A stretch of DNA of 64,000 nucleotides, from NCBI GenBank assembly GCA_030168575.1, contig CP115555.1, positions 930,001 through 994,000 of the forward strand, written 5' to 3'. The notes below the pieces were generated by a model. That model saw only the letters and a program-made list of their open reading frames with translations. It was not told the DNA's origin and ran no database searches. The stretch's first letter is position 1, and each line of letters opens with the position of its first letter. This DNA is from Methanomassiliicoccales archaeon LGM-RCC1 (GTDB taxonomy: Archaea > Thermoplasmatota > Thermoplasmata > Methanomassiliicoccales > Methanomethylophilaceae). Position numbers and translations under genes: made by a program. Shown piece after piece: positions 16,779 to 43,158 of this stretch.

Positions 16779-19700
16779 ATGAGCGCGAGGAATACAAAGT
16801 TCCTGGCAGTCTTGGCCGTATTCGTCATGGCCTTCTCAGTCATCACTGTCATCGCAACATCAGAGCAGAACGATGCTGCCAACACAGAGGAGACGACATC
16901 GGATCTGACGATCAACGCCATCGATACCTCAGTCACTCTTACAGGTAATGGTGCATACTACTACGCGGACAATGGGGACACTGTAAGCGCAGGTTCTGAC
17001 GGAGATTACTCCGTAACTGTCTTCGTCAGGCACGGCGCTTCGGTCACATTCGCATCGAAGAGCACCCATTCCATAACTGTCACTGCGTACGTCGCGGCAA
17101 CGGCCAGCGACTCCTGGATATCAGGTCAGGTGACCTATTACAAGGATACCAAGCTGGAGTTTGTCGTGGCTGCCGGCGGAGTTTATACACAAACCATCAC
17201 AGCAAGCAACAATGCCGGAAATACAGATCATTTCAGCATAACCACGATGGATGAGCACACGACGTTGAAGACGCCGTACAAGAAGGACGGCACGACATAC
17301 ACCTTCCTCACCGATGGGTCCAAGACCGCATATTACAACGAGCAGTTGATCGTCTTCCCCGTAGGATCCATGGGAACATACACCGTGAGTTCTCTTACCT
17401 ACTCCAACGGAACCGCAGGCACGACAGCCGTTGCCACAGCGACCGTCAGAGCAGCAACTGCATCAACCGGAGTCATTACCTTCTCGATTGGAACCGCCGC
17501 AACAGGCACGATGGTCATTGGTATAACAGAAGCAGCATCCAGCATGGGTTTCACGATGGACAAAGGTGTTGCAACGATGACTGCCGGCGAATTGAATTAC
17601 GGATTCATGACAACTAACGTATCCATCAATTTCTATGCGACCAAGGCAGTGCAGGTCGCCAGTAACAGTCCGCTTAACGATGGTAATGTGACGATCTCAA
17701 GCACCAGCGCAGGCATCGAAGCTGCTGCGGCTGCACCTTTCATCTACGGCAAGGTGGAGGCGGGCAGATTCTCCAATGCAGGCATCACAGCCACTTTGAA
17801 CAACGCCACTGCCCACATCACCCTGAACAATCTGAACGGCACCGGGGACGTCATCAACAGCAACAAGGCCTATGTGGAGGAATACACAGGCACCCTCACC
17901 ATCTCGGAGACGGGAACGGCCATTGTTTCGACGAGTTACACGAGGATCTCTCTGGAATCAGGGACATTCACTGTAGCCAACAATTTCCACGTGTACGAGA
18001 ACGATTACATTAACATATCGGCGGATTCCAGGCTGGTCATGGGCGAGAACTTCCTGGTCGACAAGGCCACCAGTCTGGGTGCATCATCAGGCAGGATGAT
18101 CGTTAAAGGAGGATTGGATTCCTCCGCAGCGTCAACGGCTTTGAAATGCTCCGGGACATTCAAGGCGCACAAAGGCATGTGGATGTCCTCCAAGGTCAAG
18201 GTCGATGACCAGAACGGCACCGGTACCATAGACTTCACAGAAGCACTGTCCAGGATGGGCATCGGCGGAACCATGATGGGCGGAGCGACCTTCCACCAGA
18301 CTCAGAGCGTTGACCTCATCAGCGACCTCACGATACGCAACAATTCCGTCGTCACGGTATGGGGCACACTCACCATCCCCGAGGGGATGACGCTGACCAT
18401 CGATCAGGGATCGACTCTGATCATCGATTCCGATTCCGCCATACTAGACGTCAAGGGGGACATCGAGGTGAAGGACGGAGCCTATCTCCGCGTCTATAAC
18501 CTCGAATCATCGTCAGTCACAGGTTCTATAGAAGGTTGGCGCGGATCGAACATCATACTCGGAGCAGAGGACACGGTCACCGCGAGCGGACCTCTCAGCA
18601 TAGCGAACGGGGGGTCCCTGGAATCGCAGGGTAACCTGGACCTCTACGCATACAACAACGTCGGTGTCAGTCTCAAGACCTCGGCCGGATCCAAGGTCGT
18701 CATCGAAGGCACCTTCTCCGCCGAATCCAAATCCACCTCAATCGGGGGGAAGCTCATCCTTGACGATGCATACATGGGGCTCAGCTCGGAGCTCGTCCTG
18801 GCGACCACAGGTGCAGAGGCCGATGTGAGAGAGGTCACCATCGCCCGCCAGACATCAGCCTCCACAAGCGCAGTACTAACGATAAAGGACGGTGTCAACA
18901 CGTTCACCGTGGCATCCCACGACGGTTCGACCGACGGAATCGACGACAGGACCGGACTCGAGGGAATCAAGTTAACAGTGGCATCCGGAACGACCTCCAG
19001 GGGAATGGATATCTCTGGACACATGGACTATGTCCTGCCAAACGGATCCAACGATTATCCGGTGGTCACCATATCGGGATCCACGCCGATGGTCAAGGAA
19101 GACCTCTACCTCGGCGACAAGGTGGTACTGAACGTGGCCGCGAACAAGCTCGCGGTCTCCGGCAACTTATACGTCCTGAGCAGCGATGCCCGCCTATCGG
19201 TGACCGGAAAGGTGGCTTCCACCGGACTCATCACCCTGAGGACGAACGTCGACACCCCGACCAACATGATCGGGGCCTACTACAAGCCTGACGACCTCAG
19301 CAGCATCTATCACTATTACACCACGCTCGAGAAGGCAATGGATGCCGGAGCCACCGCGATCACCATCTACGGAGCTTACGCGCTGAACTCGAATCTGTAT
19401 GTGCCTTCGACCGTGGAGCTGAGCAACAGAGGGGACGTGACCATCGGGTCCAGGACCAACACCTCCGCGGTTGTCAAGTTCGCGGACGGGGCCGTCTTCA
19501 GAGGGAACGGCGTGACCGTGTACGGTACCCTTGAATTCGAGAACAAGGATGACAACAGGCTTGCTCACGTCAATTGCGATGTGGCAGTGGAAGGGGAAGT
19601 CTCCTCGATATACACCAACGTTTACAATGCATTGAACAATGCCAATCCTGGCGACACGGTCACCATCACATCGACCGAGACAGTAACATTCAGGTCCAAC

Positions 19701-21350
19701 GTGACCGTGAAAGAGGGGGTCACGCTAGCAGCACCCTACAAGACGCAGCTGGCTTTAGGTCCGAGAACGGTCATCACCATCGACGGTACGGTCACAGCCT
19801 TCAACGGTATCGCCGGAACATTCGACGGATCGTCTCCTTCGGAGCTCGTGGTCAACGGTGTGTTCATGACGGGCGAGAGCGATAATCCCGCAACGATCTA
19901 TGCGAAGTACAAGGTCGCCGCAATGTACTACTGCGTGTACGACAGAGGGCCATACGTGAACGTAACGCCCCTCAGAACAGCATCGATCGATGTGATGGAC
20001 GCAGAAGATGCGACGATCTTCGCTTACGGCGCAGTAGACGGAGGCGCCGTCTCCGTCATGGGAAAGTCTGCAGACGAACCTGCTACGATCATCGTCGCCG
20101 AAGGCAGCTCGCTGACGGCAGACATCACGGCAGCCAACGCACGGTTGGTTGCTTTGGGAACATTCGATGGAACAATCTCCAACGGCACAAATGTCGCAGA
20201 GATCAAGGGCATCAGAGGCTTCACAGCAACATTCGATTCCGGCCTTATCCTGAGCGGATCAGTAACGAAGGGTGCGAAGTCCAAGACTCCTGTAATCACT
20301 CTGACGGACGGAACGGTCACCGCAACGGGTCTGACCGTCCCCGAAACAGTGGGATTCGAAGTGAATGCGGGTTCCGCTTTGGCCATTGCTGGGAAGGTAT
20401 CGATCTACACGATGACGGTCGACGGTACCGTCATCGTCAACAGTGGGAAGAACCCCGCAAGTGAGAACAAATCCACATCAGCAGGTTCGCTGACCGTCGT
20501 CAGCGCAACGATCCTCGGATCCCTTGTTGTCCTGCCAGCTGACAACACCAACGGAGAATCCCATGGCGGATCCCTCACGGTCACATCATTGTACATCGGA
20601 ATGGAGTCCGACGACCTCTCCGCTACAGCTATCGCGTCAGCGAGATCCATCGGATTCGCCGATGATGCCGGCATCATCTATCTCAGGGCAGGCTCCACCA
20701 TATCCGACGACGCGGTGACCGACATGAAGGCATCCAGATTCTACGTGGACGGGGAGCTCTACATGACGGTGTACGTCCCCGGCGACAGCACCTGCACCGA
20801 AGCAGATATAGGCAGACCGACGGTAGAGGATTCCATAGCTGGAAAGTGGATGCTGGACGGGGAGGAGGTAGACACCGTCGACCTCACAATGGGCAAGGAC
20901 TATGAGCTGAACGTCAACCACAAAATATACTACGTCACCATCGTGACCGATTCCGGGCTGAAGTCCGTCTCCATCGACGGTATCCTGCTGCTGAACACAG
21001 GCGGCAACGTCTTCGTCTCCACAAAGATGCTCGAGGCAGGCACATACGAGGTCACCTACACCCTGATGAAGAAGTACGAGGAGACCGCCTCCGGGGTACA
21101 GCTCTCGGACCGCCACGGCAACGTCCTGGAGGATCGGAAGTTCGTCCTGTCAGGGACCGACGGCTACGATGACGAGAAGGGATATGCGCTCCGCACATTC
21201 CAGCTGTCCGGTACCGAACCCATCTCTCCGGAACCCGTCGAACCGGAGAAGGAGTCCGAACTGACCATAACCAATCTCCTGCTGTCCCTGTTGTTCGTCA
21301 TCCTTTCGATAATGGCCATCTACCTTGCCCTCAGCCTCGACAGGCGCTGA
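16779..21350 (+). CDS. Giant secreted, membrane-anchored surface protein (adhesin-like) 3
   Basis: 1,523 residues from ATG 16779, which has the same 9-base spacing to AAGGAG as the other two genes; ATG 16773 is also in frame. Signal peptide MSARNTKFLAVLAVFVMAF, then SEQNDAA. Long beta-strand-rich repeat region with many GTLT/GSLT units. C-terminal linker SPEPVEPEKESE, a membrane helix (LLLSLLFVILSIMAIYLAL) and a SLDRR tail. The region of roughly residues 800-1,500 aligns with proteins 1 and 2 (YTTLEKAM, NVYNALNNANPGDTVTIT, the VTDSGLKSVSIDG block). It lacks their leader and shows more divergent codons, so it is an older paralogue or is separately regulated. Confidence 0.8.
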   Translation: MSARNTKFLAVLAVFVMAFSVITVIATSEQNDAANTEETTSDLTINAIDTSVTLTGNGAYYYADNGDTVSAGSDGDYSVTVFVRHGASVTFASKSTHSITVTAYVAATASDSWISGQVTYYKDTKLEFVVAAGGVYTQTITASNNAGNTDHFSITTMDEHTTLKTPYKKDGTTYTFLTDGSKTAYYNEQLIVFPVGSMGTYTVSSLTYSNGTAGTTAVATATVRAATASTGVITFSIGTAATGTMVIGITEAASSMGFTMDKGVATMTAGELNYGFMTTNVSINFYATKAVQVASNSPLNDGNVTISSTSAGIEAAAAAPFIYGKVEAGRFSNAGITATLNNATAHITLNNLNGTGDVINSNKAYVEEYTGTLTISETGTAIVSTSYTRISLESGTFTVANNFHVYENDYINISADSRLVMGENFLVDKATSLGASSGRMIVKGGLDSSAASTALKCSGTFKAHKGMWMSSKVKVDDQNGTGTIDFTEALSRMGIGGTMMGGATFHQTQSVDLISDLTIRNNSVVTVWGTLTIPEGMTLTIDQGSTLIIDSDSAILDVKGDIEVKDGAYLRVYNLESSSVTGSIEGWRGSNIILGAEDTVTASGPLSIANGGSLESQGNLDLYAYNNVGVSLKTSAGSKVVIEGTFSAESKSTSIGGKLILDDAYMGLSSELVLATTGAEADVREVTIARQTSASTSAVLTIKDGVNTFTVASHDGSTDGIDDRTGLEGIKLTVASGTTSRGMDISGHMDYVLPNGSNDYPVVTISGSTPMVKEDLYLGDKVVLNVAANKLAVSGNLYVLSSDARLSVTGKVASTGLITLRTNVDTPTNMIGAYYKPDDLSSIYHYYTTLEKAMDAGATAITIYGAYALNSNLYVPSTVELSNRGDVTIGSRTNTSAVVKFADGAVFRGNGVTVYGTLEFENKDDNRLAHVNCDVAVEGEVSSIYTNVYNALNNANPGDTVTITSTETVTFRSNVTVKEGVTLAAPYKTQLALGPRTVITIDGTVTAFNGIAGTFDGSSPSELVVNGVFMTGESDNPATIYAKYKVAAMYYCVYDRGPYVNVTPLRTASIDVMDAEDATIFAYGAVDGGAVSVMGKSADEPATIIVAEGSSLTADITAANARLVALGTFDGTISNGTNVAEIKGIRGFTATFDSGLILSGSVTKGAKSKTPVITLTDGTVTATGLTVPETVGFEVNAGSALAIAGKVSIYTMTVDGTVIVNSGKNPASENKSTSAGSLTVVSATILGSLVVLPADNTNGESHGGSLTVTSLYIGMESDDLSATAIASARSIGFADDAGIIYLRAGSTISDDAVTDMKASRFYVDGELYMTVYVPGDSTCTEADIGRPTVEDSIAGKWMLDGEEVDTVDLTMGKDYELNVNHKIYYVTIVTDSGLKSVSIDGILLLNTGGNVFVSTKMLEAGTYEVTYTLMKKYEETASGVQLSDRHGNVLEDRKFVLSGTDGYDDEKGYALRTFQLSGTEPISPEPVEPEKESELTITNLLLSLLFVILSIMAIYLALSLDRR

Positions 21351-29566: not shown

Positions 29567-30235
29567 ATGCCCCGGACAGTCGTCACATACTATTCGGATA
29601 CCGACCTCCTTCTTCATCCAGACGTCTACGGCAGGGCATACTCCGTCCTTCCGGAATACCGCAGGGAGAAGGCGGATTCCTTCGTCTTCGCCAAGGACAA
29701 GGCGCTGTCCGCAGGCGCATGGCTGCTGCTCCGCAGGGCCCTGGATGGCCTGGGAGAGGATCCCGACAGTGTCCGCATAGGATACCGGAAGAACGGCAAG
29801 CCTATAATGGAAGGCTCGGACATCCAATTCAATCTCTCACATTCCGAGCATCGCGTGATGTGCTCTGTATCCGATATCGACCTGGGATGCGACGTCGAGC
29901 ACATACAACCCATCGATATGGACATCGCCAGGAGGTACTTCTTCGGTTCCGAGTACGGAACGATCTCCTCCGCTGATGACAGGGACGGCATGTTCTATCG
30001 TTTCTGGACCCTCAAGGAGAGCTTCATGAAGGCCACCGGCCTGGGATTCGAGCTCCCTCTGGATTCATTCTGCATCCACTTGGGTGAGGATATATCCGTG
30101 GACCAAACCGTCGACGGCAACGTCTATCATTTCAAGGAATACGACATGAACGACGGCTACAGATACGCCGTCTGCTCCCTGGCGGAGGACTTCTCTCCGA
30201 AGATGGAGTATGTAGACCTCGCTAAATACTCGTAA
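29567..30235 (+). CDS. Sfp-type 4'-phosphopantetheinyl transferase
   Basis: 222 residues from ATG 29567, with AAGGA six bases upstream. Family motifs are clear: FNLSHSEHRVMC, DLGCDVEH (metal-binding Asp and Glu) and FWTLKESFMKATGLG (WxxKEAxxKxxG). The enzyme moves the phosphopantetheine arm of CoA to the conserved Ser of carrier domains, making them active. Archaea generally lack acyl-carrier-protein fatty acid synthesis, and the two-module synthetase at 33.3-40.6 kb has two carrier domains, so that is the likely substrate. It is followed 14 bases later by an EamA transporter. Confidence 0.9.
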   Translation: MPRTVVTYYSDTDLLLHPDVYGRAYSVLPEYRREKADSFVFAKDKALSAGAWLLLRRALDGLGEDPDSVRIGYRKNGKPIMEGSDIQFNLSHSEHRVMCSVSDIDLGCDVEHIQPIDMDIARRYFFGSEYGTISSADDRDGMFYRFWTLKESFMKATGLGFELPLDSFCIHLGEDISVDQTVDGNVYHFKEYDMNDGYRYAVCSLAEDFSPKMEYVDLAKYS

Positions 30236-30249
30236 TACCTTAGACCTTC

Positions 30250-31164
30250 GTGAGCTTCAAGCCGTCACCCTTCGCAATGGTACTTCTGGCCGCGATCCTC
30301 GCAGGTCTCCTCAACATGTTCTCCAAGGATCTGCTCAATGCAGGATTGGGTCCGATGGAGATCTGTGCCTGCCGCGAGGGAGTGACCGCCATAGTGTTCG
30401 CACTGATCCTTCTGGCCATCGACCGTTCAGCCTTCAAGGTCAGGATACGCGACCTTTGGATATTCGCCCTGTTCGGAGCGTTCAACGTCATCAGCAACGT
30501 GTGCGTGTTCACCGCTCAGGAGACGCTGCCTCTGGAAGTGGCGGCGGTGCTAGAGATGACCAGCCCATACTTCATGCTGGTCTTTGCATACTTCCTCTTC
30601 GGGGACAAGGTCACCAGAAGGAAGGTCCTCGCCGTTGTGATGGCCTTCGTCGGCTGCGTGTTCATCATCGGATTGGTCAATGGTGTCGACAATATCGACA
30701 TACTCGGAGTCGCGATAGGGCTGCTCTCAGGAATGACCCTGGCGGCCTTCACCATAGGCGGAAAGGTCATCGGGGAGAGAGGGTATTCGGAGAACAGCGC
30801 CATGTTCTATTTCTTCCTGTTCAGCGCGATCCTGGTCGCGCCGTTGGCGGATTTCAACACGATCTGGACCGTGGCTAGTTCCGACTGGATCCTCTTGGCA
30901 TGCATCATCGTCATGGGAATACTGTGTACACTGGCGCTCAACTATCTGGTCATCTATTCGATCCGCCGTATGGACCCGGCCACAGTCTCCATCGTGATCA
31001 CCTCGAGCCTGATAGTGTCCACGTTATGCGGAGTATTGGTGTTCGGAGACGAGTTCCATTGGACCGATGTGATCGGTATAATACTCGTCATGGCCGCCAT
31101 AATCCTATTGGACCCGCCTGAATCTCTTGTGAAGAGATTCAAGGGAAAGAGTTACGATTCATGA
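30250..31164 (+). CDS. EamA/DMT-family transporter
   Basis: 304 residues from GTG 30250, with ten hydrophobic segments arranged as two repeats of five (each EamA domain ends in a short basic loop, IDRSAFKVRIRDL and GDKVTRRKV). The family exports or imports metabolites such as amino acids and nucleosides. Lying directly after the phosphopantetheinyl transferase and in the same orientation, it could export the peptide product; this is a guess from position. The start is weakly supported because no clear Shine-Dalgarno is seen. Confidence 0.8.
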   Translation: MSFKPSPFAMVLLAAILAGLLNMFSKDLLNAGLGPMEICACREGVTAIVFALILLAIDRSAFKVRIRDLWIFALFGAFNVISNVCVFTAQETLPLEVAAVLEMTSPYFMLVFAYFLFGDKVTRRKVLAVVMAFVGCVFIIGLVNGVDNIDILGVAIGLLSGMTLAAFTIGGKVIGERGYSENSAMFYFFLFSAILVAPLADFNTIWTVASSDWILLACIIVMGILCTLALNYLVIYSIRRMDPATVSIVITSSLIVSTLCGVLVFGDEFHWTDVIGIILVMAAIILLDPPESLVKRFKGKSYDS

Positions 31165-31273
31165 GGTATGCGTACTTACCCGAAGAATAGCTAGATTCTA
31201 GTTTTTGATGATTCACAATACATAGAAAAAACAATCTAGACTTTATATATCAAAGATTGAATTTTTCTAATAT

Positions 31274-31327
31274 CCGTAATTTTATTACGGGATATAGATA
31301 CTTTTATATGCCGTAAAAATATTACGG
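31274..31327 (+). promoter_or_regulatory. Twin palindromic operators around the TATA of the second AbiL-type ATPase
   Basis: CCGTAA-TTTTA-TTACGG at 31274-31290 and CCGTAA-AAATA-TTACGG at 31311-31327, both 6-5-6 palindromes with identical arms and 37 bases between starts. The TATA-like CTTTTATATG lies between them (31301-31310). The second ends 12 bases before the ATG. A repressor bound here would block both TATA and start site. Confidence 0.65.
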
Positions 31328-31339
31328 TAATGGGATAAT

Positions 31340-32452
31340 ATGCTGAGAAGATTCGCGGTTGAGAACTACAAAAATTTTAAGGGTCGCACGGTGATGGATT
31401 TCACAGCCGTGCGCAATTATTCGTTCAATGATCAATGCATAAGCAACGGTCTTCTTAACAAGGTCATACTACTCGGAAAGAACGGTTCCGGGAAGACGAA
31501 CCTCGGCCTTGCAATCTTCGACATTGTCGTAACGCTGACGGACAACGTGGTATACAACAGGCAAATCGATCCTGGATCCTATTTGAACGGGGATTCCACC
31601 AAGAAGTATGCCACATTCGAATACGAATTCCAAGATGGAGACCGTACGATAAGATACATTTATCGCAAGACCGATCCGAGGACGATATCCTATGAGGAAC
31701 TGGAGGTCAATGGGAAGCTCATATTCCTGCGTGACGGCGACAAGAGCGATTACAAGGGCCTTTCCAAGATCAACGCCGACAATCTCCGTATGGACATGGA
31801 CAACGGTGCACTCTCGGTCGTCCGTTACATAAATGCGAACACTGTTCAGAACAAAGAATCTCCGATATCATTCATCATGGATTTTGTCTCACATATGCTG
31901 TATTTCAAATCCGACATAGAAGGAAACGGATTCATCGGTTATGGCAAGACCGGTGAGTTCATCTATGATTACATAATCAACAACGGGCTCACCGAGGATT
32001 TCAAGAGAATGTTGAAGGAATATGCTGAGGTCGAGGCTGATCTGGGTGTGGTGAAGATGCCGGGAACGCCAGGAGTCTTCGTCCAGAAGTTCAGGAACAG
32101 ACAGCTTACATTCGAGTCAATATCGTCCACAGGAACGAGGGTATTCGCCCTTTTCTATTATTGGTACAAGCATTTCGGAGATGTCAGATTTGTATACATG
32201 GATGAATTCGATGCATACTATCATTACGAGATGTCTGAGAGGATAGTGAGGATGGTCTCACAGATGGAAGGTTTCCAGACGGTGTTTACGACTCACAACA
32301 TATCCCTTCTTAGGAATTCCCTTTTGAGGCCTGACTGCTGCCTGACCATCGATAACGGGCGTATCCGTTCATTCTCCGATTCCACTGGAAGGGAGCTCCG
32401 CGAGGGTCACAATCTGGAAAAGATGTACCGCAACGGTGAGTTCGATGACTAA
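31340..32452 (+). CDS. AAA-family ATPase of a second AbiL/RloA-type pair
   Basis: 370 residues. FAVENYKNFKGRTVMDF start, Walker A LLGKNGSGKTN near residue 50, signature-like STGTRVFALFYYW, Walker B VRFVYMDEFDAYYH and TTHNISLL. It shares the plan of the ATPase at 982-2184 but is a different subgroup. Its stop overlaps the start of an RloB/AbiLii-like gene that is now broken. It separates the transferase-transporter pair from the peptide synthetase, so it was probably inserted into that cluster. The AT-rich start contrasts with its GC-rich neighbours. Confidence 0.8.
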   Translation: MLRRFAVENYKNFKGRTVMDFTAVRNYSFNDQCISNGLLNKVILLGKNGSGKTNLGLAIFDIVVTLTDNVVYNRQIDPGSYLNGDSTKKYATFEYEFQDGDRTIRYIYRKTDPRTISYEELEVNGKLIFLRDGDKSDYKGLSKINADNLRMDMDNGALSVVRYINANTVQNKESPISFIMDFVSHMLYFKSDIEGNGFIGYGKTGEFIYDYIINNGLTEDFKRMLKEYAEVEADLGVVKMPGTPGVFVQKFRNRQLTFESISSTGTRVFALFYYWYKHFGDVRFVYMDEFDAYYHYEMSERIVRMVSQMEGFQTVFTTHNISLLRNSLLRPDCCLTIDNGRIRSFSDSTGRELREGHNLEKMYRNGEFDD

Positions 32453-33175
32453 GGATATACTATTCGTCCTTGAAGGGGGGGAGGACGGAGCCCAGATTCC
32501 TCAAGGCCCTCATCGCAGTACCCGCGACGATAGGGATTATTCCGTATTCAGTTATGGCACAAGTCTGCACAAGATGCTGGATGGAATGTTCGAAGGCGGT
32601 GATATCGACACGGATCTGGATTTCCAGGAATATCTGAAATCCTGTAGAACCGGGAGCGGAGGCGATGTTCTCGACAGAACATTCACGGACATATTCCTCA
32701 TGTTCGATATGGATCTGCAAGATCAGAATTTCGATAGTAGAAGAGTAAGGAAGGCGCTAGATTATTTCGATGATTCGACCGAGAATGGGAAGATGTACAT
32801 CAATTACCCGATGTTGAATCATATAAACACATCGCACATCCTGATGATTCGTCATATCTCGACGAAAGAGTTTCTGTGGATGACATCAACCATTACAAGG
32901 AAATGGTCGGAAAAGAGGGGGATCCCGCATTGGCAGATGTGGGAAAAAACCTGCCTGATATGTGGAGGCGGATCATAGACTTGAATCTGATGAAGGCCAA
33001 TCTCTTGGTGAATTAGGACAGAAGTATGCCTACAAGGGATATGTATTCAGAGCTTGGCCAGAAGAACATATTCGACTGTCAGACCGAGGAATTTGTGAAA
33101 GAGAATATGTTACACATCCTGAATACATCGGTTTTCAATGCAGTGGATTACAACCCCAGCAGATATCTAGCCTGA
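32445..33175 (+). pseudogene. RloB/AbiLii-like partner gene, disrupted by frameshifts and an amber codon
   Basis: Starts MTKDILFVLEG at ATG 32445, overlapping the ATPase stop. RTEPRFLKAL follows only in the next frame after G(7) at 32475-32481, and the frame returns by DYSVFSYGTSLHKM near 32530. It continues through IFLMFDMDLQDQNFD and NYPML, then a missing base near 32815 shifts to YKHIAHPDDSSYLDERVS and DMWRRIIDLNLMKANLLVN. An in-frame TAG at 33014-33016 is followed by DRSMPTRDMYSELGQKNIF and CQTEEFVKENMLHILN, to TGA at 33173-33175. Three indels plus one amber argue for a pseudogene (or read errors). As TAG can be pyrrolysine in this lineage, that single site is ambiguous. Confidence 0.65.
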
Positions 33176-33342
33176 TCCAGTGCTTCAGTGAAGAGATTCA
33201 AGGGCAAGGCCATTAAATCGGAATAAGACATAACATCCATCCAAGGTTTATGCCCCAGGGTGATGGACGGCGTGGCTATGATGTAGTTCAGGATCAGAGA
33301 CCGTCACAGGCAGCGTCCTTCCTGGTCGAGCGACATGAAGTG

Positions 33343-36300
33343 ATGGACATGTTCAGATTAAGTAAGGTACAGTACGGGATCTACGCAGAGTGCATTCAGA
33401 ACCCTGATTCCACCAGATACAACATCCCCGCCATCGAGAGGATGCCGGACCATATGGACGTGGATAGACTCGTCAGGGCCGTTGACGCTCTGGTGGAGGC
33501 GCATCCCGGACTGAGGACCAGGGTGTTCGCTGATGACAGCGGTCAGCTGGTCCAGGAACTGGACTGCGAGGTGCACGCGATCGTCAAAGACATGTCCGAC
33601 GAGGAGTTCGATTCTGTCAAGGACGATCTGGTCGTGCCCTTCGACCTTGCGAAAGGCCCTCTGGCCAGATTCGAGATCTACAGGACCCCTTCAGGCAACT
33701 ACCTCTTCATGGATATCCATCACCTCATCTACGACGGCAGCGCGAACAAGGTCCTGGCAAGGGACCTGGGCGACGCGTACAAGGGCAAGCCCCTCGAGAA
33801 AGAGAAATTCACCATGCAGGACGAGGTGGCCTATGAGGACTCCAAGACCGATGGGGAGAAGGCCGAGGCGAAGAAGTTCTACGCCTCGTTCCTGGACGGC
33901 ATCGAGACCGATTCGCTCCCTCCGAGGGACGTCTATTCCGACACCCCCTCCCAGGGAAGGATCGTGCAGCCCTTCCACATTGACGAGGAGAGGTTCCGTG
34001 CACTCCGCAAGGAAGTCGGCACCAACCGTACTGCATTCTTTATCACCGTCATGGGCGTCCTGACGGCCAGGATGGCCGGGAAGGACAACTCGTTCATCAC
34101 ATCGGTCCACAACGGCAGGAGACCTGAGAACGAGGACACCATCAACATGTTCGTGAGGACCATCCCGGTCTACACCGACATCTCCAAGGGATCCATCCGC
34201 GACATCATCTCCACGACATATCAGCGCCTGGAGGGCACATACAGGAACGATTCGATGTCCTACATCGAGCTGGCTCAGGAGTTCGGCCTGAACGCCGACA
34301 TCACCATGGCCTACCAGAAGGATGTCTCGAAGCTCAAGTTCGTGGAGGGCTACGACGGCAACGTCGAGCGCATCTACAATAAGAAATACGTCTCCGGCGC
34401 AGCGATGACATTCGAGGTCGTCGACGCCGACTCCAAGACAGGCGACTACGTCATCGACCTGTCCTACCGCGCGGACATGTACACCGAAGGGATGATGAAG
34501 GCCCTGCTCCGCGCATACATCAAGCTTGCCCAGGAGCTGCTAGTCAAGGAACGTCTGGACGAGATCGATCTGATGGATGATGAATCCGCCGAGATCATCG
34601 ACGGGTTCAACCAGACAGATGTCGATCAGGACCTCACCGTCACGCCTTACGATATGATCCGCAAATGGATGAAGGAGACTCCCGACTCCGTAGCATCAGT
34701 GTTCAAGGAAGAGCAGATTACCTACGGCCAGATGGATTCCGTCACATCCGCGATAGCCGCCTGCATCCATTCCAAAGGCATCGGAAGGGAGGACTTCGTC
34801 TCCATTTTGATCCCCAGAGGACAGCTCATGGTAACCGCTTCCATCGGAGTTCTCAGGGCGGGAGCCGCCTACCAGCCCCTGGACCCGTCCTATCCGAAGG
34901 AGAGGCTCAACTTCATGGTCAAGGACTCCGGAGCGAAGCTCCTCATAGCCGACAGGTCCCTGAGGGACATCCTGGATGAGTACAACGGAGACGTCCTGTT
35001 CACCGACGAGATCCCATCTCTGAAACCATCGGATGAGGAATACGAGCACAAACCCCAGGATCCGTTCACCATACTCTACACCTCGGGTACAACCGGAACA
35101 CCCAAAGGATGCATCCTGGAGAACAGGAACCTCACATCCTTCCTTAACCATCACCAGAGGCATTTCCAGATAGATGAGAACAGCCGTGCGATCACATACG
35201 CCAGCTACGGTTTCGACGCATCGATGATGGACATCTTCACCACGCTCTGCTTTGATGCACACCTCTACATCATACCAGAGGAGATGCGCCTGGACATCAT
35301 GGCGATGGACCGTTATTTCACGGAGAATCAGATCACGCATGCTTTCATGACCACACAGGTGGGAAGGCAGTTCGTAACCATGACGGAATGCAAGACGCTG
35401 AAGCACTTCTCCCTCGGAGGGGAGAAGCTGGTCCCCGTCAACCCGCCGGAGTGGCTGGACTTCGTGAACCTCTACGGTCCCACAGAGACCACTGTATACG
35501 TCACATACCAGCAGGTCAAGGACGACAATCCGCTGTGCCCCATCGGAAGGCCCAACGACAACATCAAGGCGTACATCATGGACAAGAACGGACGCCAGCT
35601 TCCAGTTGGAATCCCCGGTGAGCTGGTCGTCGCCGGACCGCAGGTCACTAGAGGATATCTTAACAGGCCCGACAAGACCTCCGAGGTCTTCATAGTCAAT
35701 CCGTTCTGCAGCGAGCAGAAGTACCGCCGCGCATACCGCACCGGGGACATCGTCAGATGGCTGCCGGACGGAGCTATCGAGTACATCGGCAGGAACGACG
35801 GACAGGTCAAGGTAAGGGGATTCAGGATCGAACTGACCGAAGTGGAGAAGGTCATCCGCGAGTTCCCCGGAATCAAGGATGCGACGGTGGCAGCATTCGA
35901 TGCACCTTCCGGTGGAAAGTTCATCGCAGCATACGTCGTATCAGATTCCAAGATCGACGTGAACGAGCTCAACTCGTTCATCGCCGAGAGGAAGCCGCCG
36001 TACATGGTACCGGCGGTCACCATGCAGATCGATGCTATCCCGCTAAACGTCAACAGCAAGGTGGACAAGCGCAAGCTTCCGAAACCGGAGATCCAGGCCG
36101 AGGACCTGACTCCGCCCGAGAATGATGTCCAGCAGAAGATATTCGACATCGTCAAAGGAGTGATCGGCACAGACGCATTCGGAGTGGACACGGACCTGTA
36201 CGCAGCAGGACTGACTTCAATCACCACCATCCAACTGAACGTCCTCCTGTTCAAGGAGTTCGGTGTGGACATGCAGATCAAGGGCCTGAAGGAGAACTCC

Positions 36301-39300
36301 ACCGTAAGGAAGCTGGAGAAGCTCATCGGATCCAGGTCGCCCTCGAAGACCTATGAGCAGAAGGACAGCTATGCACTGTCCAAGACGCAGGAGGGAATAT
36401 TCGCCGAGTGCATCGCCAACCCCGGCAGCACCGTTTACAACATCCCTCTCCTGTTCAAGATCTCCAAGGATCTGGATGTCGAGAAGCTGAGGGAATCTTT
36501 GGTCAAGGCGGTGAACGCCCACAGCTTCATCCGCACCAGGATCTTCCTGGACTCCTCAGGCGATGTCCAGCAGAGTAGGGAGGACAAGGAGGACTACGGT
36601 GTAGCGGATATCCCTGTCGAGAAAGTCGATGACCTGGAGAAGGCCAAATCCAATCTGTGCAAGCCGTACAATATCATCGGCGACAGGCTGTTCAGGCTCA
36701 GGATTCTGGAGACGCAGTCGGAGAGGTACCTGTACATCGACATGCATCACATCATCTCCGACGGAACGTCGATGAACAACTTCCTGGACTCCGTGTCCCG
36801 CGCATACGCCGGAGAGGAGCTGGAGAAGGAGAAGTTCAGCGGATTCGAGGTAGTGATGTCCGAGAACGAGGCACGCACGCCCGAGGCGCTGGACAAGGCC
36901 AAGACATATTACGATAACCTCCTGGGAGGATGCGAGACCGACATCCTTCCCAGGACAGACCTCTACAGCAAGGACAAGGGATTGGGTTCCGTCGTCACCG
37001 ACGGAGCGTCTACTGATGAGATTCAGAAGTACTGCAGCGAGAAGGGAGTCACCGTCAACGGAATGATGTGCTCCGTGTTCGGATTCGTGCTCTCCAAGTT
37101 CTGCGGAACCGAGGATCCCGTCTTCGCCACGGTATACAACGGAAGGGACGATTCACGTACCGCGGAGACCGTTGCCATGATGGTGAAGACCATGCCTGTG
37201 GTCTGCCATGTCAAGGGCAAGACCCAGGATTATGTCCGCGGCATCTCCCAGCAGCTCATGGACAGCATGTCGAACAGCGTGATGTCCTTCGCCGAGATCA
37301 ACAAGGAGTTCGGTGTGAAATCCGATATGCTGTTCGTCTACCAGGGAGCGATGTTCGGATTCGAGACCATCTGCGGAGCACCCGCGGAGCAGATCCGCCT
37401 CTCGTCGGACCTGGTGAAGAGCCCGATCACATTCATGCTCTCCGAGGTCAAAGGCAAGCTGCACTACGAGTGCGAGTACGATAAGGCACTCTACAGCCAC
37501 GGATTCGTCGAGAGTCTGGTGGACGCATTCGACACCGCTGTGGAAGGATTCCTGAAGAGGGACGAGCTGGCCGATGTCACCGTTCTGAGCGACAGGGCAG
37601 CAAAGGTCCTCGAGGGATTCGACCAGACCGGAGCGGAGCAGGATCTGGAAGTGCCCCCGTACATGATGATCGAGAAGTGGATGAAGGAGACTCCGGATTC
37701 CATCGCGGTCGCATACAAGGACGTCAGGATGACCTACAAGCAGCTCGATGAGATCTCGAGGAAGATCTGCGTCCTGCTGGAGTCCAAGGGCATAGGCAAG
37801 GAGGACTTCGTATCCGTCCTGGTCCCGAGGAGCGAGTGGATCGCACTCGCGACGGTAGGAATCATCAGGTCCGGAGCGGCATACCAGCCTCTGGACCCCT
37901 CCTATCCGAAGGAGAGGCTCAACTTCATGGTCAAGGATTCCGGTGCCAAGCTGGTCATCGTCGACCGCAAGCTCAGGGAAATCATCGACGAGTATCAGGG
38001 CGACGTCCTGTTCACGGACGAGATAGCCGACCTTCCGGACGGAACCCCTAAGGGAACCGTCTGCGGTCCGCTGGACGCCTTCACCATACTCTACACCTCT
38101 GGTACCACCGGAACCCCCAAGGGATGCATCCTGGAGAACGGCAACGTGAAGTCCATCATCAACCACTACACCAGGAACCTGGAGGGCAGCAACAAGATGC
38201 GCACGGCATCCTACGCCAGCTACGGTTTCGATGCGAACATGATGGACATCTTCACCTCGCTGTGCAACGGTGGGGAGCTGCATATAATCCCTGAGGACAT
38301 GCGCCTCGACCTGCCCGAGGTGGACCGCTACTTCGTAGACAACGGCATCACCCACGGATTCATGACCACCCAGGTGGGAAGGCAGTTCGTCACCATGACC
38401 AAATGCAAGACGCTGAAGCATTTCCTGGTCGGCGGAGAGAAACTTGTCCCCGTGAACCCCGTCCCGTGGGTGGATTTCGTCAACATCTACGGTCCTACGG
38501 AGACATCGGTCTACGTTACAAGCCACCGCGTCAAGGACGACAATCCGCTGTGCCCGATCGGAAGGCCCACGGACAACACCAAGGCCTACGTCGTGGACCG
38601 CAACGGACATCTCCTTCCCGTAGGCGCCCTCGGAGAGCTTTATGTGGCCGGACCGCAGGTGTCCAGAGGATACCTGAACAGGCCGGACAAGACCTCCGAG
38701 GTCTTCATCAAGAACCCGTTCACCAACGATCCGTACTACTCGCGTGCATACCGCACCGGGGACATCGTCAGATGGCTCACCGACGGTACGATCGAGTGCA
38801 TCGGAAGGAACGACGGCCAGGTCAAGGTCAGAGGCTTCAGGGTCGAACTTACAGAAGTGGAGAAGGTCATCCGCGAGTTCCCCGGAATCAGGGATGCCAC
38901 GGTAGCTGCCTTCGATTCTCCGGCCGGCGGAAAGTACATCGCGGCCTATGTCGTATCAGACAGCAAGGTCGATGTGGAAGCTCTCAACAGGTTCATCGGG
39001 GAGAGGAAGCCGCCTTACATGGTGCCTGCCGCCACGATGCAGCTGGACAGGATACCGCTGAACGTCAACAGCAAGGTGGACAAGCGCAAGCTGCCCGAAC
39101 CCACACTTGATTCATCCAGGATGGAGGGCAGGATGCCCAAGAGCGAGGCGGAGAAGAAGCTGTGCGAGATCTTCGCCACCGTCCTAGGGCTGGAGAAGGT
39201 GTATGCGGACGACGACTTCTTCGCGATCGGAGGAACATCGATCTCCGCATCCAAGCTCGTGCTGAACTGCATGAATGCAGGCTTCCCGCTGGTCTACAAG

Positions 39301-40557
39301 AACATATTCGACAACCCCACGCCCGAGCAGCTGGCCAGGTTCATCACCAAGCAGGAGCCCGCAGCCGGAGGCGAGGAACCGAAGGAAGAGGTCGTCGCAG
39401 ACGAAGGGCCTCTGTCAGCCAACGTCGCTGACAGGCTGGACGAGATCAGCTCTCACAGCCCCAAGAAGATCATGCTCACCGGATGCACCGGATACCTCGG
39501 ATCGCACGTGCTCTACGAGCTGCTCAGGAGGAACGTCAAGGAGGTGTTCTGTCTTGTGAGGAGCGGAAAGGGACAGACATCCGAGGAGAGGCTCAAGTCG
39601 ATGTTCATGTACTACTTCGGAGGAATGTTCAACGAGAGCGTCCTCGAGAAGGTCAAGGTCCTGGATTGCGACATCACCGACAAGGACCTCTACGACAAGG
39701 TGAAGGACCTGGACTTCGACACGATCATCAACTGCGCCGCGATAGTGAAGCACTTCGCAGCTGACGACTCCATAGACAGGGTCAACGTTGGAGGTGTCGT
39801 GAACCTGATAGACGTCGCCAAGAGGAAGAACGCGATGCTCGTCCAGATCTCAACCGAGAGCGTTGCCGGTGAATCCGTCAACGGCAGCGTCCCCATCGAC
39901 AAGAAGATGAAGGAGAACGAGCTGTTCTTCGGGCAGAACCTGGAGAACAAGTACGCCCACTCCAAGTTCATGGCGGAGAAGGCGATGATCGACGCCATAC
40001 CCTCCGGCCTCAGGGCGAAGATCATCCGTGTCGGAAACCTGATGAGCCGTGACAGCGACGGTGAATTCCAGATCAACTTCGACACCAACGCCTTCATGAA
40101 GCAGATGAGGTCCTATGTCAAGCTCGGATTCTTCTCCGTCACCGATATGGACATCGAGGTGGAGTTCTCACCCATAGACATGGTTGCCAAGGCCGTGGTC
40201 ATCCTCGCAGGGACCCCCGACCAGTTCACCGTGTTCCATGTGAACAACTGCCATAAGGTCCACATGGCCAACGTGCTGAAGGTCATGAGGGACAACGACA
40301 TGCCCGTGGAGGTCGTTTCCAAGAAGGTCTTCGACCAGAGGTTCATGGAAGCGCTGAAGGACGAGTCCAAGGGAGAGTACGTCTCCGGACTGATCAGCTA
40401 TCTCGGAAACGCCGGTGAATCCAGGAGGTTCATCGCTGCCGACGAGATATACTCCATCAAGGCCCTTTACAGACTGGGCTTCTCCTGGCCGATCATCTCC
40501 GAGCAGTACATCGACAGAGCGTTCAAGGCATTGAAATCCATGAGGTTCTTCAAATGA
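33343..40557 (+). CDS. Two-module non-ribosomal peptide synthetase with terminal reductase (C-A-T-C-A-T-R)
   Basis: About 2,404 residues from ATG 33343, where the first condensation domain begins; ATG 33250 is in frame. Domains in order: C1 (HHLIYDG at 33718), A1 (TSGTTGTPKG near 35080, YGPTETTVY near 35475), T1 (GLTS near 36210), C2 (HHIISDG at 36745), A2 (TSGTTGTPKG near 38095), T2 (GGTS near 39230), and a thioester reductase (TGCTGYLG near 39478, YAHSK at 39952). It should join two amino acids, probably after N-acylation by C1, and release the product as an aldehyde using NAD(P)H; such aldehydes can cyclise to pyrazinones. The two modules are very alike. By alignment to GrsA I read specificity residues DAMQSGLVYK (A1) and DAMQLGIVYK (A2), which I cannot assign. 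Four downstream genes overlap or abut. Confidence 0.92.
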   Translation: MDMFRLSKVQYGIYAECIQNPDSTRYNIPAIERMPDHMDVDRLVRAVDALVEAHPGLRTRVFADDSGQLVQELDCEVHAIVKDMSDEEFDSVKDDLVVPFDLAKGPLARFEIYRTPSGNYLFMDIHHLIYDGSANKVLARDLGDAYKGKPLEKEKFTMQDEVAYEDSKTDGEKAEAKKFYASFLDGIETDSLPPRDVYSDTPSQGRIVQPFHIDEERFRALRKEVGTNRTAFFITVMGVLTARMAGKDNSFITSVHNGRRPENEDTINMFVRTIPVYTDISKGSIRDIISTTYQRLEGTYRNDSMSYIELAQEFGLNADITMAYQKDVSKLKFVEGYDGNVERIYNKKYVSGAAMTFEVVDADSKTGDYVIDLSYRADMYTEGMMKALLRAYIKLAQELLVKERLDEIDLMDDESAEIIDGFNQTDVDQDLTVTPYDMIRKWMKETPDSVASVFKEEQITYGQMDSVTSAIAACIHSKGIGREDFVSILIPRGQLMVTASIGVLRAGAAYQPLDPSYPKERLNFMVKDSGAKLLIADRSLRDILDEYNGDVLFTDEIPSLKPSDEEYEHKPQDPFTILYTSGTTGTPKGCILENRNLTSFLNHHQRHFQIDENSRAITYASYGFDASMMDIFTTLCFDAHLYIIPEEMRLDIMAMDRYFTENQITHAFMTTQVGRQFVTMTECKTLKHFSLGGEKLVPVNPPEWLDFVNLYGPTETTVYVTYQQVKDDNPLCPIGRPNDNIKAYIMDKNGRQLPVGIPGELVVAGPQVTRGYLNRPDKTSEVFIVNPFCSEQKYRRAYRTGDIVRWLPDGAIEYIGRNDGQVKVRGFRIELTEVEKVIREFPGIKDATVAAFDAPSGGKFIAAYVVSDSKIDVNELNSFIAERKPPYMVPAVTMQIDAIPLNVNSKVDKRKLPKPEIQAEDLTPPENDVQQKIFDIVKGVIGTDAFGVDTDLYAAGLTSITTIQLNVLLFKEFGVDMQIKGLKENSTVRKLEKLIGSRSPSKTYEQKDSYALSKTQEGIFAECIANPGSTVYNIPLLFKISKDLDVEKLRESLVKAVNAHSFIRTRIFLDSSGDVQQSREDKEDYGVADIPVEKVDDLEKAKSNLCKPYNIIGDRLFRLRILETQSERYLYIDMHHIISDGTSMNNFLDSVSRAYAGEELEKEKFSGFEVVMSENEARTPEALDKAKTYYDNLLGGCETDILPRTDLYSKDKGLGSVVTDGASTDEIQKYCSEKGVTVNGMMCSVFGFVLSKFCGTEDPVFATVYNGRDDSRTAETVAMMVKTMPVVCHVKGKTQDYVRGISQQLMDSMSNSVMSFAEINKEFGVKSDMLFVYQGAMFGFETICGAPAEQIRLSSDLVKSPITFMLSEVKGKLHYECEYDKALYSHGFVESLVDAFDTAVEGFLKRDELADVTVLSDRAAKVLEGFDQTGAEQDLEVPPYMMIEKWMKETPDSIAVAYKDVRMTYKQLDEISRKICVLLESKGIGKEDFVSVLVPRSEWIALATVGIIRSGAAYQPLDPSYPKERLNFMVKDSGAKLVIVDRKLREIIDEYQGDVLFTDEIADLPDGTPKGTVCGPLDAFTILYTSGTTGTPKGCILENGNVKSIINHYTRNLEGSNKMRTASYASYGFDANMMDIFTSLCNGGELHIIPEDMRLDLPEVDRYFVDNGITHGFMTTQVGRQFVTMTKCKTLKHFLVGGEKLVPVNPVPWVDFVNIYGPTETSVYVTSHRVKDDNPLCPIGRPTDNTKAYVVDRNGHLLPVGALGELYVAGPQVSRGYLNRPDKTSEVFIKNPFTNDPYYSRAYRTGDIVRWLTDGTIECIGRNDGQVKVRGFRVELTEVEKVIREFPGIRDATVAAFDSPAGGKYIAAYVVSDSKVDVEALNRFIGERKPPYMVPAATMQLDRIPLNVNSKVDKRKLPEPTLDSSRMEGRMPKSEAEKKLCEIFATVLGLEKVYADDDFFAIGGTSISASKLVLNCMNAGFPLVYKNIFDNPTPEQLARFITKQEPAAGGEEPKEEVVADEGPLSANVADRLDEISSHSPKKIMLTGCTGYLGSHVLYELLRRNVKEVFCLVRSGKGQTSEERLKSMFMYYFGGMFNESVLEKVKVLDCDITDKDLYDKVKDLDFDTIINCAAIVKHFAADDSIDRVNVGGVVNLIDVAKRKNAMLVQISTESVAGESVNGSVPIDKKMKENELFFGQNLENKYAHSKFMAEKAMIDAIPSGLRAKIIRVGNLMSRDSDGEFQINFDTNAFMKQMRSYVKLGFFSVTDMDIEVEFSPIDMVAKAVVILAGTPDQFTVFHVNNCHKVHMANVLKVMRDNDMPVEVVSKKVFDQRFMEALKDESKGEYVSGLISYLGNAGESRRFIAADEIYSIKALYRLGFSWPIISEQYIDRAFKALKSMRFFK

Positions 40558-41069
40558 TGAAAGGGATCCCCGATATCAGGAAGGGCGGCAAGCCGCTCGC
40601 GGCGGTCGCCGTGATAATATTGATCGCCATGTCTGTTCTGCTGTTCGTATTCCCGGACGATGACGGCAAGATCCGCACGGATCTTGTCGTAGGCGATTTC
40701 TACGTATTCAAGAATGAAGCCCTTGGCTCAGAGATCAGATTCGAGATAGCTGACATGGACGGTGACATCCTGACGGTTAACATGACCACTGCTGGGGAGC
40801 AGGAGATCACGTACACTAGCGGAAAGGATGAGTTCCTTTCGAAGATCCTGTTCAACTCCGAGGAGCTGAAAAGCAAATGCGAAGTAAGTGGTATCTCTCT
40901 CATCAAGACCTTTCACGGAACGGTGCTGTGTGACATCTACAAAAACCAGCTGAGCTACTACTATGTGGACGAGTATGGGGTGATATATCATTCGATTATT
41001 GGCGGGATGTCCTTGCATCTGATCAATTCTTCCCTGTTCATCGGATACGATACTGAAGGAGGGTCGTGA
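40554..41069 (+). CDS. Single-span exported protein coupled to the peptide synthetase
   Basis: 171 residues. Its ATG overlaps the synthetase stop (ATGATGA). A basic N-terminus (MMKGIPDIRKGGK) is followed by one hydrophobic segment (about residues 15-32) and an external domain of about 135 residues rich in beta-strand pattern (VGDFYVFKNEALGSEIRFEIADMDGDILTVNM). No lipobox or catalytic motif. It could be an anchored extracytoplasmic sensor or immunity factor for the phosphatase or the peptide; both are guesses from position. Family not recognised. Confidence 0.7.
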   Translation: MMKGIPDIRKGGKPLAAVAVIILIAMSVLLFVFPDDDGKIRTDLVVGDFYVFKNEALGSEIRFEIADMDGDILTVNMTTAGEQEITYTSGKDEFLSKILFNSEELKSKCEVSGISLIKTFHGTVLCDIYKNQLSYYYVDEYGVIYHSIIGGMSLHLINSSLFIGYDTEGGS

Positions 41070-41071
41070 TC

Positions 41072-42859
41072 ATGACCGGTCAAGAGTTTAGCATAAACTC
41101 GGACCGCGAGGCCAACAATCTCGTGTCTGCCATTGTGGTCTTGCTGTCGATCGTGATGATGATCTTCTACATCCTGTTCCGCATGGATGTCATCGAACTG
41201 TACAAGCATGCGGAGACATATCAGGCATTGACTCTGTGCTCTGCCGTCGGTGCATTCGCTGTGGTGCTGAACCTGGTCTACAAAGGCGAGGCACGGTGGC
41301 TCAGGTACGTCCTGATGTCCGCGGTGATGGTGACATGTACCGCACTCGTCACGATATTGGACAACAATTACCTGCCGTATTTCCTGCCGATCATCCTGTG
41401 CAGCTTGTATTACAACAGGAAGCTGGCGCTGGCGACATCGCTGGTATGCGGCATCCTGATACTCGTCGGCCCGTGCCTGACCTACCTGGTGGGCATAGTC
41501 AATCTCAACTATGTGACGCTGGTCAGCTACACCCCGACCTACAACACCATCGTCGGCTACGGTGCAGACAGCATAACTGAGGAGTTCTTCAGCAACGCCG
41601 TGCCATCCGCATTGGTGTTCATACTCGGTTCGCTGTTATCGGTATGGCTGGCCGAGATAGGCCGTAACCACATGGAGCAATCCAGGGATGCCGCAATCAG
41701 GGAGGCGATGGTGGAGAAGGATGTCACCATAGCATCGGAGATTCAGTCAGGAATGCTGCCCTCCGACATCACCGACAGGGAGGAGTTCTCCATAGCCTCC
41801 AGGATGTATCCTGCGAAGACTGTCGGTGGGGACTTCTACGATTTCTTCATGGTCGACGAATCCCATCTGGCCATCGTCATGGCAGACGTTTCTGGAAAGG
41901 GCATATCCGCGGCCATGTTCATGGCAACCGCCAGGACACTGATAAGATCCAACGTTCAGGCCGGAGGCGACCTCGCAAAGGCGATGGAGAAGGCCAACAG
42001 GGAGCAGGCATCCGACAATGTGATGAAGTACTTCGTCACAGTCTGGATAGGGGTGCTCGACCTCAAGACCGGCGATGTCACTTACATCGATGCAGGTCAT
42101 AATCCGCCGTTCATCGAGAAGGACGGCAAGTTCACCAAGCTGGAGGCCAAGCCCGACTTCGTCTTCGGAAGGAAGAGGGCGATCAGGTACAATAAGCAGC
42201 ACGTAAAGATGGACATCGGGGACAGGATCTTCCTGTACACCGACGGTGTCACGGAAGCCGTTGGCCCAAACGGCACCATGTACGGAGAGGACAGGCTCAA
42301 CTCCTCCCTGGATTCCCACGGCGGAGCCAATGTGGAGGATCTGGTGGATCACGTGAAGTCCGACCTTTCCCAATTCGTCAGGGATGCTGTCCAGAGCGAC
42401 GACATCACCATCATGGCCATGGAGTACAAGCAGGTCTACTCGGTCCAGGAGGACGAGGGCATAACCGTGTCCGCGGACAGCGAGGGACATTCCAGGATAA
42501 TTTCCCGCCTGCAGCGCATACTCACCGAGGCTGGCTGCAAGCCCAAGGTCATCAACGAGATGCAGGTCGCGGTATCAGAGATATTCGCGAACCTGGACAT
42601 GTACGCTTATGGAGAGATGCCGGAGAAGGGCGACATCAAGGTCGCCATGGATGTGTTCAGCGACAGGATTAGCATAACGATAACAGACTGGGGGGTCCCG
42701 TTCAACCCGCTTGAGCATCTAGATCCCGACCCGGTCGAGAACTTCAACAACCGCAAGCGCGGGGGACTGGGCATCATGATCGTCAAGAAGATCTGCGACG
42801 ACGTGACCTACACCCGCGAGGGCGACCACAACATACTGAAACTGGTCAAGGAGATTTGA
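41072..42859 (+). CDS. Membrane SpoIIE/RsbU-type protein phosphatase fused to a GHKL (RsbW-like) domain
   Basis: 595 residues from ATG 41072, ten bases after AAGGAGG; GTG 41066 overlaps the preceding stop. About six membrane helices fill residues 15-195. The PP2C/SpoIIE core follows with metal-binding GGDFYDFF, MADVSGKG, YTDGVTEA and SDDITIM. The last 130 residues form a GHKL ATPase: N-box NEMQVAVSEIFANLD, DWGVPFNP and RGGLGIMIVKK. One protein thus contains both the phosphatase that would dephosphorylate a STAS antagonist and a kinase-like domain that would phosphorylate it. The STAS partner is encoded next. In bacteria such sets control sigma factors; archaea have none, so the output is unknown. 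Confidence 0.9.
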   Translation: MTGQEFSINSDREANNLVSAIVVLLSIVMMIFYILFRMDVIELYKHAETYQALTLCSAVGAFAVVLNLVYKGEARWLRYVLMSAVMVTCTALVTILDNNYLPYFLPIILCSLYYNRKLALATSLVCGILILVGPCLTYLVGIVNLNYVTLVSYTPTYNTIVGYGADSITEEFFSNAVPSALVFILGSLLSVWLAEIGRNHMEQSRDAAIREAMVEKDVTIASEIQSGMLPSDITDREEFSIASRMYPAKTVGGDFYDFFMVDESHLAIVMADVSGKGISAAMFMATARTLIRSNVQAGGDLAKAMEKANREQASDNVMKYFVTVWIGVLDLKTGDVTYIDAGHNPPFIEKDGKFTKLEAKPDFVFGRKRAIRYNKQHVKMDIGDRIFLYTDGVTEAVGPNGTMYGEDRLNSSLDSHGGANVEDLVDHVKSDLSQFVRDAVQSDDITIMAMEYKQVYSVQEDEGITVSADSEGHSRIISRLQRILTEAGCKPKVINEMQVAVSEIFANLDMYAYGEMPEKGDIKVAMDVFSDRISITITDWGVPFNPLEHLDPDPVENFNNRKRGGLGIMIVKKICDDVTYTREGDHNILKLVKEI

Positions 42860-42861
42860 AA

Positions 42862-43158
42862 ATGCAGATAGATGTGAAGAAGGAGAACGGGGTCACCACT
42901 CTGATCCCCAGAGGCAACATAGATTACGTCACGGCACCGGAACTGGACGAGGCCGTCGAGAGGGAGGCTGTGGAATCCAAGTCATTGGTGTTCGACATGG
43001 CCGAGGTATCGTACATCTCGTCCGCCGGACTGAGGTCCATCCTGAACGCCGACGAGCTGATGGAGGACAAGGACGGCATAAAGCTGGTGAACGTGAACAA
43101 GGATGTCAGGTCCATCCTGGACATGACGAACTTCTCCGGTCTGCTGAAGATCGAGTGA
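42862..43158 (+). CDS. STAS-domain anti-sigma-antagonist-like protein
   Basis: 98 residues from ATG 42862, with AAGGAG eight bases upstream. A single STAS domain: VTTLIPRGNIDYVTAPEL, then LVFDMAEVSYISSAGLRSIL, where the S in the DxxxVxYISSAG segment is the usual phosphorylation site, and KLVNVNKDVRSIL. It matches SpoIIAA/RsbV in length and motif. It should be phosphorylated by the GHKL domain and dephosphorylated by the SpoIIE domain of the upstream protein. It is the last gene of the synthetase operon, two bases from the stop of the convergent PHP gene. Confidence 0.9.
   Translation: MQIDVKKENGVTTLIPRGNIDYVTAPELDEAVEREAVESKSLVFDMAEVSYISSAGLRSILNADELMEDKDGIKLVNVNKDVRSILDMTNFSGLLKIE

Follow-up and report, generated by a model that had tools for sequence, protein, structure and literature searches.

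A synthetase and a partner switch in one gene run

The window analysed here, a stretch of 64,000 nucleotides, corresponds to positions 930001-994000 of the single-contig 1.66 Mb genome of a gut methanogen in the order Methanomassiliicoccales. It contains a non-ribosomal peptide synthetase (NRPS) gene followed by the genes of a membrane-bound partner switch, namely a fusion of a SpoIIE phosphatase with a GHKL kinase domain, and a STAS protein. The cassette can be read as a horizontally shared, aldehyde-releasing synthetase joined to a partner switch that would gate either the export or the production of a dipeptide aldehyde. Taken as a whole, we give this reading an even chance of being correct. 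The four genes of the run are as follows.

33250-40557, + strand, NRPS with domain order C-A-T-C-A-T-reductase, 2435 aa (Pfam)
40554-41069, + strand, exported protein with one membrane span and a beta-rich outer domain, 171 aa (AlphaFold model)
41066-42859, + strand, membrane SpoIIE phosphatase-GHKL (RsbW-like) kinase-domain fusion, 597 aa (Pfam SpoIIE 4.7e-44, HATPase_c_2 4.3e-24)
42856-43158, + strand, STAS protein (Pfam STAS 1.1e-15; NCBIfam ant_ant_sig above cut-off)

In the list of open reading frames (ORFs) these genes lie head to tail between 33250 and 43158, and each junction is an overlap of 4 bp. The likely start of the STAS protein is a typical ATG at 42862 that is preceded by AAGGAGA. 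That synthetase and switch genes stand in one run is confirmed; every family which a sequence-only reading of this DNA had named, both for the run and for the 4'-phosphopantetheinyl transferase (PPTase) and EamA genes upstream, was found by Pfam.

Conservation of the cassette

Across 147 genomes of the order, the positions of canonical condensation-domain synthetases and of SpoIIE genes were determined, and the regions then compared. A SpoIIE-GHKL gene lies directly downstream of the synthetase in 14/14 genomes whose contig is long enough to tell (the window genome, G077, G078, G079, G083, G084, G085, G088, G090, G091, G092, G093, G041 and G042). The contig of a fifteenth cassette genome, G027, stops approximately 0.6 kb past the synthetase and was not counted. 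A STAS gene follows in all testable cassettes except that of G042, whose contig ends inside SpoIIE-GHKL. The slot after the synthetase varies by species and holds the exported protein, a PPTase or neither.

In eight genomes SpoIIE, HATPase_c_2 and STAS domains were each found just once, in every case in the cassette (G041, G078, G079, G083, G085, G090, G091 and G092). Five of the eight are at least 90% complete; many of the relatives are metagenome bins, and such counts of one depend on completeness. The window genome carries each of the three domains twice, at two loci, and its only HATPase_c_2 domains are the two fused to SpoIIE, with no separate GHKL anti-sigma kinase. Its second switch locus (L003:4599-11152, G000 437.6-444.2 kb) consists of an ABC exporter pair, the last gene of which overlaps a STAS gene, and then SpoIIE-GHKL; the same order is seen at L165.

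When the carrier-reductase region was used to scan 84,980 species genomes, 68 loci were obtained, the majority belonging to Firmicutes and Spirochaetes of rumen and gut. In 49 bacterial loci the sequence extends far enough for a test, and 28 of these have a SpoIIE gene on the same strand within 5.5 kb downstream. From approximately 4.3 SpoIIE genes per approximately 2.1 Mb, chance adjacency is estimated at well under 1% per locus, although the loci are not independent. Because the pairing recurs in all 14 testable archaeal genomes and in 28/49 bacterial ones while the genomes hold few SpoIIE genes (1-2 in archaea, 2-11 in bacteria), the arrangement is, as judged from gene neighbourhoods, beyond chance. 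The recurring link between synthetase and phosphatase or STAS genes that the sequence-only reading had anticipated is thereby borne out.

In an unrooted tree, which does not prove the direction of transfer, the archaeal reductases group as one clade (SH-aLRT 97) amid those of rumen Firmicutes and Spirochaetes. The archaeal SpoIIE domains likewise form one clade. The deep branches, which bear on whether switch and synthetase travelled jointly into the archaea, are not resolved in the SpoIIE tree. Reductase and SpoIIE domain distances are correlated, with r of 0.80 across 37 loci (0.82 for archaea taken alone and 0.77 for bacteria) and 0/5000 permutations giving as high a value, which points to co-inheritance; shared species history can yield part of this correlation.

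The synthetase and its predicted product

The ORF at 33250-40557 encodes two Condensation, two AMP-binding and two PP-binding domains and one NAD_binding_4 reductase domain (Pfam), and is thus a two-module NRPS with a terminal thioester reductase, kin to enzymes of gut Firmicutes. Its best NCBIfam match is the aureusimine synthetase AusA, at 1145 bits against a cut-off of 2500, which places it outside the AusA equivalog. The reductase is predicted to release a dipeptide aldehyde, and as the synthetase begins with a condensation domain the two-residue peptide is probably N-acylated. The pocket residues of the two A-domains (partial codes DAMFFLLVY and DAMFFVIVY) are hydrophobic. An assignment to particular amino acids was dropped, as these partial codes match no citable code, and the claim is limited to 'hydrophobic'.

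Passages of two papers on gut synthetases that end in a reductase report protease-inhibiting dipeptide aldehydes as their products (PMC8518294, PMC12327764). The present enzyme is like the ruminopeptin and BGC0001686 synthetases and AusA in having C/A/T modules and a reductase end; those enzymes belong to gut Firmicutes and give aldehyde or pyrazinone products, and the same passages describe the products rather than any SpoIIE/STAS partner (PMC8518294, PMC12327764).

A second NRPS frame of 5225 aa is present in the window genome (G000 775-791 kb); one match contains an in-frame TGA, and no SpoIIE gene lies close by. A pyrrolysine-containing NRPS of similar size has been reported from ISO4-G1.

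The switch proteins

In alignments of the cassette proteins the GGD, GKG, TDG and DD motifs of SpoIIE are invariant, and the metal-binding motifs are intact. Of 17 archaeal SpoIIE fusions, all keep the Glu and Asn of the GHKL N-box and the Asp of G1, and 16 also keep the remaining glycines of G1 and G2. The SSAG motif is invariant in an alignment of 14 archaeal STAS proteins. Its second serine, Ser56 (within ISSAGL, nt 43021-43023), is the candidate phospho-serine, which by position we take to correspond to that of SpoIIAA.

In the AlphaFold model of SpoIIE-GHKL (mean pLDDT 80.5) approximately six N-terminal membrane helices lead through a long linker helix to the phosphatase and GHKL domains. 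The six-helix phosphatase of the sequence-only reading is therefore retained; that reading named no output, for which the bacterial relatives suggest an exporter (see below). The best match in the PDB is the RsbU-RsbW pair of Rv1364c (3KE6, E 1.3e-19).

The 171-aa exported protein (40554-41069) has one hydrophobic span, matched no Pfam family and occurs in five archaeal cassettes by alignment. Its PDB matches are just weak and MucB/LolA-like (E 0.013, TM 0.42), and no fold identity is claimed. In-frame TAG codons lie within the exported-protein gene at L074:8286-8798 and within the SpoIIE gene at L094:3407-3409. The order reads TAG as pyrrolysine; read-through, decay or error is possible in each case.

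In bacteria a switch of this type usually acts on RNA polymerase. Archaea lack sigma factors; partner-switch proteins do occur in them. No Sigma70_r2 match was obtained in the window genome by a search that found the domain in 10/14 control genomes, and the 25 commonest families among 110 neighbour genes of bacterial cassettes include no sigma family. A sigma factor was rejected as the output on both counts. As the sole GHKL domains are SpoIIE fusions and no sigma factor was found, the STAS protein has neither a detectable other GHKL partner nor a sigma factor to free. The non-sigma output that had been proposed as one option is in keeping with these results, unlike the description of the genes as a complete Rsb-like module: kinase and phosphatase are fused, and neither a free anti-sigma kinase nor a target protein is present.

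Exporter-GHKL fusions in related clusters

In many bacterial loci the synthetase is adjoined by a protein of approximately 585 aa in which a MatE transporter carries a C-terminal HATPase_c_2 domain. This MATE-GHKL fusion was found in 23 bacterial loci. Genes that stand beside the synthetase in bacterial loci include the fusion, STAS and SpoIIE(-GHKL). Among 110 neighbour genes of bacterial cassettes HATPase_c_2 was found in 49, SpoIIE in 30, MatE in 25, STAS in 20 and the PPTase family in 8. The N-box and G1 are kept in 23/23 MATE-fused GHKL domains.

Fusions of this kind beside biosynthetic genes, in bacteria and archaea, include the following.

L118:11431-13188, MATE-GHKL fusion
L147:11446-13230, MATE-GHKL fusion
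L152:616-2361, MATE-GHKL fusion
L156:431-2170, MATE-GHKL fusion
L107:633-2456, MATE-GHKL fusion
L088:4372-6108, MATE-GHKL fusion
L176:16290-18011, MATE-GHKL fusion

Three Methanomassiliicoccales clusters combine LuxE, LuxC, MATE-GHKL and SpoIIE-GHKL with no NRPS (L087:7571-16405, L176:8992-18011 and L088:742-7917); a STAS gene was detected in L087 and L176 and none in L088. At L168:1936-7539 a GH3-type amido synthetase, STAS, MATE-GHKL and SpoIIE-GHKL form one run. Judged by gene content, the common thread of the NRPS, LuxE/LuxC and GH3 loci is a small-molecule enzyme together with an exporter and a partner switch.

Comparison with known systems

The link between synthetase, serine phosphatase and antagonist genes was published for Methanobrevibacter ruminantium in 2010, with a suggestion of sensing and regulation (PMC2812497), and the sequence-only reading was correct in pointing to it. 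In strain M1 an archaeal two-module synthetase has serine phosphatases, a MatE pump and an anti-sigma antagonist as its neighbours; mru0068 is surrounded by mru0066, mru0067, mru0069 and mru0071, mru0512-0516 are also reported, and a third cluster has a PPTase with phosphatase and antagonist (PMC2812497). Compared by published description, the antagonist mru0067 and one phosphatase, mru0066, are numbered below the synthetase, whereas here both follow it. The synthetase-switch link itself is therefore not new; new are the generality of the pairing, the closed circuit with one of each component and the exporter-GHKL fusion. No report of exporter-GHKL fusions or of one-of-each genomes was found in the open-access literature.

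By analogy, the module resembles SypE/SypA or Rv1364c and not the sigma-controlling Rsb set. In Vibrio fischeri the single protein SypE is both kinase and phosphatase for the STAS protein SypA, the output target of which is unknown (PMC8256260). The present switch similarly has kinase and phosphatase domains in one protein and one STAS partner. The SypE/SypA switch is controlled by a receiver domain, SypE presumably being a response regulator with no membrane helices, whereas membrane helices take that place here; its output is biofilm, while here the switch stands in a peptide cluster. Rv1364c of Mycobacterium tuberculosis, the closest fold, likewise joins an RsbU-type phosphatase to an RsbW-type kinase. 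We take it also to contain PAS and RsbV domains in one soluble chain, in a bacterium with sigma factors. With the Rsb/SpoIIA set the cassette shares a phosphatase with intact motifs and, by motif, a STAS antagonist with a putatively phosphorylatable serine; it has neither the separate GHKL anti-sigma kinase nor the sigma factor target of that set.

Upstream genes

Two genes upstream of the synthetase may also serve it.

29567-30235, + strand, PPTase, which arms carrier domains (Pfam ACPS 2.8e-14, AASDHPPT_N; weak AusB match)
30250-31164, + strand, EamA-type transporter, candidate exporter with 9 hydrophobic spans and no GHKL domain (Pfam EamA 7.1e-33)

PPTase homologues adjoin the synthetase in most archaeal cassettes, and an EamA gene lies upstream of the synthetase in a genome of the same species (L074) also. 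Between the EamA gene and the synthetase, at 31340-33216, an AAA ATPase and a partner form a candidate defence pair, PDC-M12A/B (PADLOC). The pair is absent from L074 and therefore lies outside the cassette proper. The B gene of the pair seems short, with an ORF in a different frame after it, and is possibly broken. Further upstream the window contains three very long ORFs of 1470-1540 aa (4278-8738, 11956-16377 and 16731-21350).

Proposed mechanism and alternatives

We infer that the synthetase would build a two-residue peptide which the reductase would free as an aldehyde, and that the membrane SpoIIE-GHKL protein would sense something at or outside the membrane and set the phosphorylation of the STAS serine, the GHKL domain adding the phosphate and the SpoIIE domain removing it. 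The STAS protein would then act on a non-sigma target, most likely the release of the peptide through an exporter. Export is favoured as the output because small-molecule enzyme, exporter and partner switch recur together, and an exporter is the likeliest target because in bacterial relatives the same gene run encodes a MATE pump with a fused GHKL domain. A more specific version, offered tentatively and with less than even confidence, is that STAS binding to the MATE-fused GHKL domain gates the efflux of small signalling aldehydes. Such an output would be non-transcriptional, common to methanogens and gut bacteria, and coupled with several biosynthetic enzymes that are unrelated to one another (NRPS reductase, LuxE/LuxC and GH3).

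Several observations weigh against a gated exporter. The GG of the G2 box is lost in the MATE-fused GHKL domains, which may therefore be docking domains and not kinases. The archaeal cassette itself contains no MATE-GHKL fusion, and none of the five MATE genes in the window genome is near it. The EamA transporter has no GHKL domain and stands beside the synthetase in this species only. The switch could control synthesis rather than export, and 21 of the 49 testable bacterial loci have no SpoIIE within 5.5 kb downstream. Confidence in export as the output of the window's own cassette is accordingly limited.

It is rather unlikely, yet the strongest of the alternatives, that the switch acts on the transcription of the synthetase genes by way of an archaeal transcription factor in place of sigma, which the STAS protein would bind or release. 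Most characterized partner switches act on transcription in this way, and regulation of the NRPS was proposed for M. ruminantium by Leahy et al. (PMC2812497). Pfam, however, finds no DNA-binding gene in the cassette, and the searches of the genome and of the commonest bacterial neighbour families described above gave no sigma factor.

A self-sensing circuit, with the peptide product as the signal and SpoIIE-GHKL, aided by the exported protein, as its receptor, we consider improbable. It would account for the fixed coupling of the genes, for the correlated divergence of synthetase and sensor protein and for the outward beta-rich partner in five cassettes, and elsewhere pyrazinones from related synthetases are known to act as signals. 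However, the sensor region has approximately six helices in archaea and two spans (some with HAMP) in bacteria although the two groups have the synthetase architecture in common, many cassettes lack the exported protein, and correlated divergence can arise from shared descent alone. That the signalling genes are mere neighbours with no functional link to the synthetase, as the bacterial loci lacking a nearby SpoIIE might suggest, is very improbable given the 14/14 archaeal genomes, the 4-bp overlaps and recurrence across phyla in genomes with 1-11 SpoIIE genes.

For the proposed switch-gated synthetase, the eight genomes with one phosphatase-kinase and one STAS protein, both inside the synthetase operon, narrow the question of what archaeal partner switches do to one operon, and the exporter-GHKL fusion provides a specific output that lends itself to testing. 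As aldehydes, the products would belong to a class that inhibits gut proteases, here apparently common to methanogens and their bacterial neighbours.

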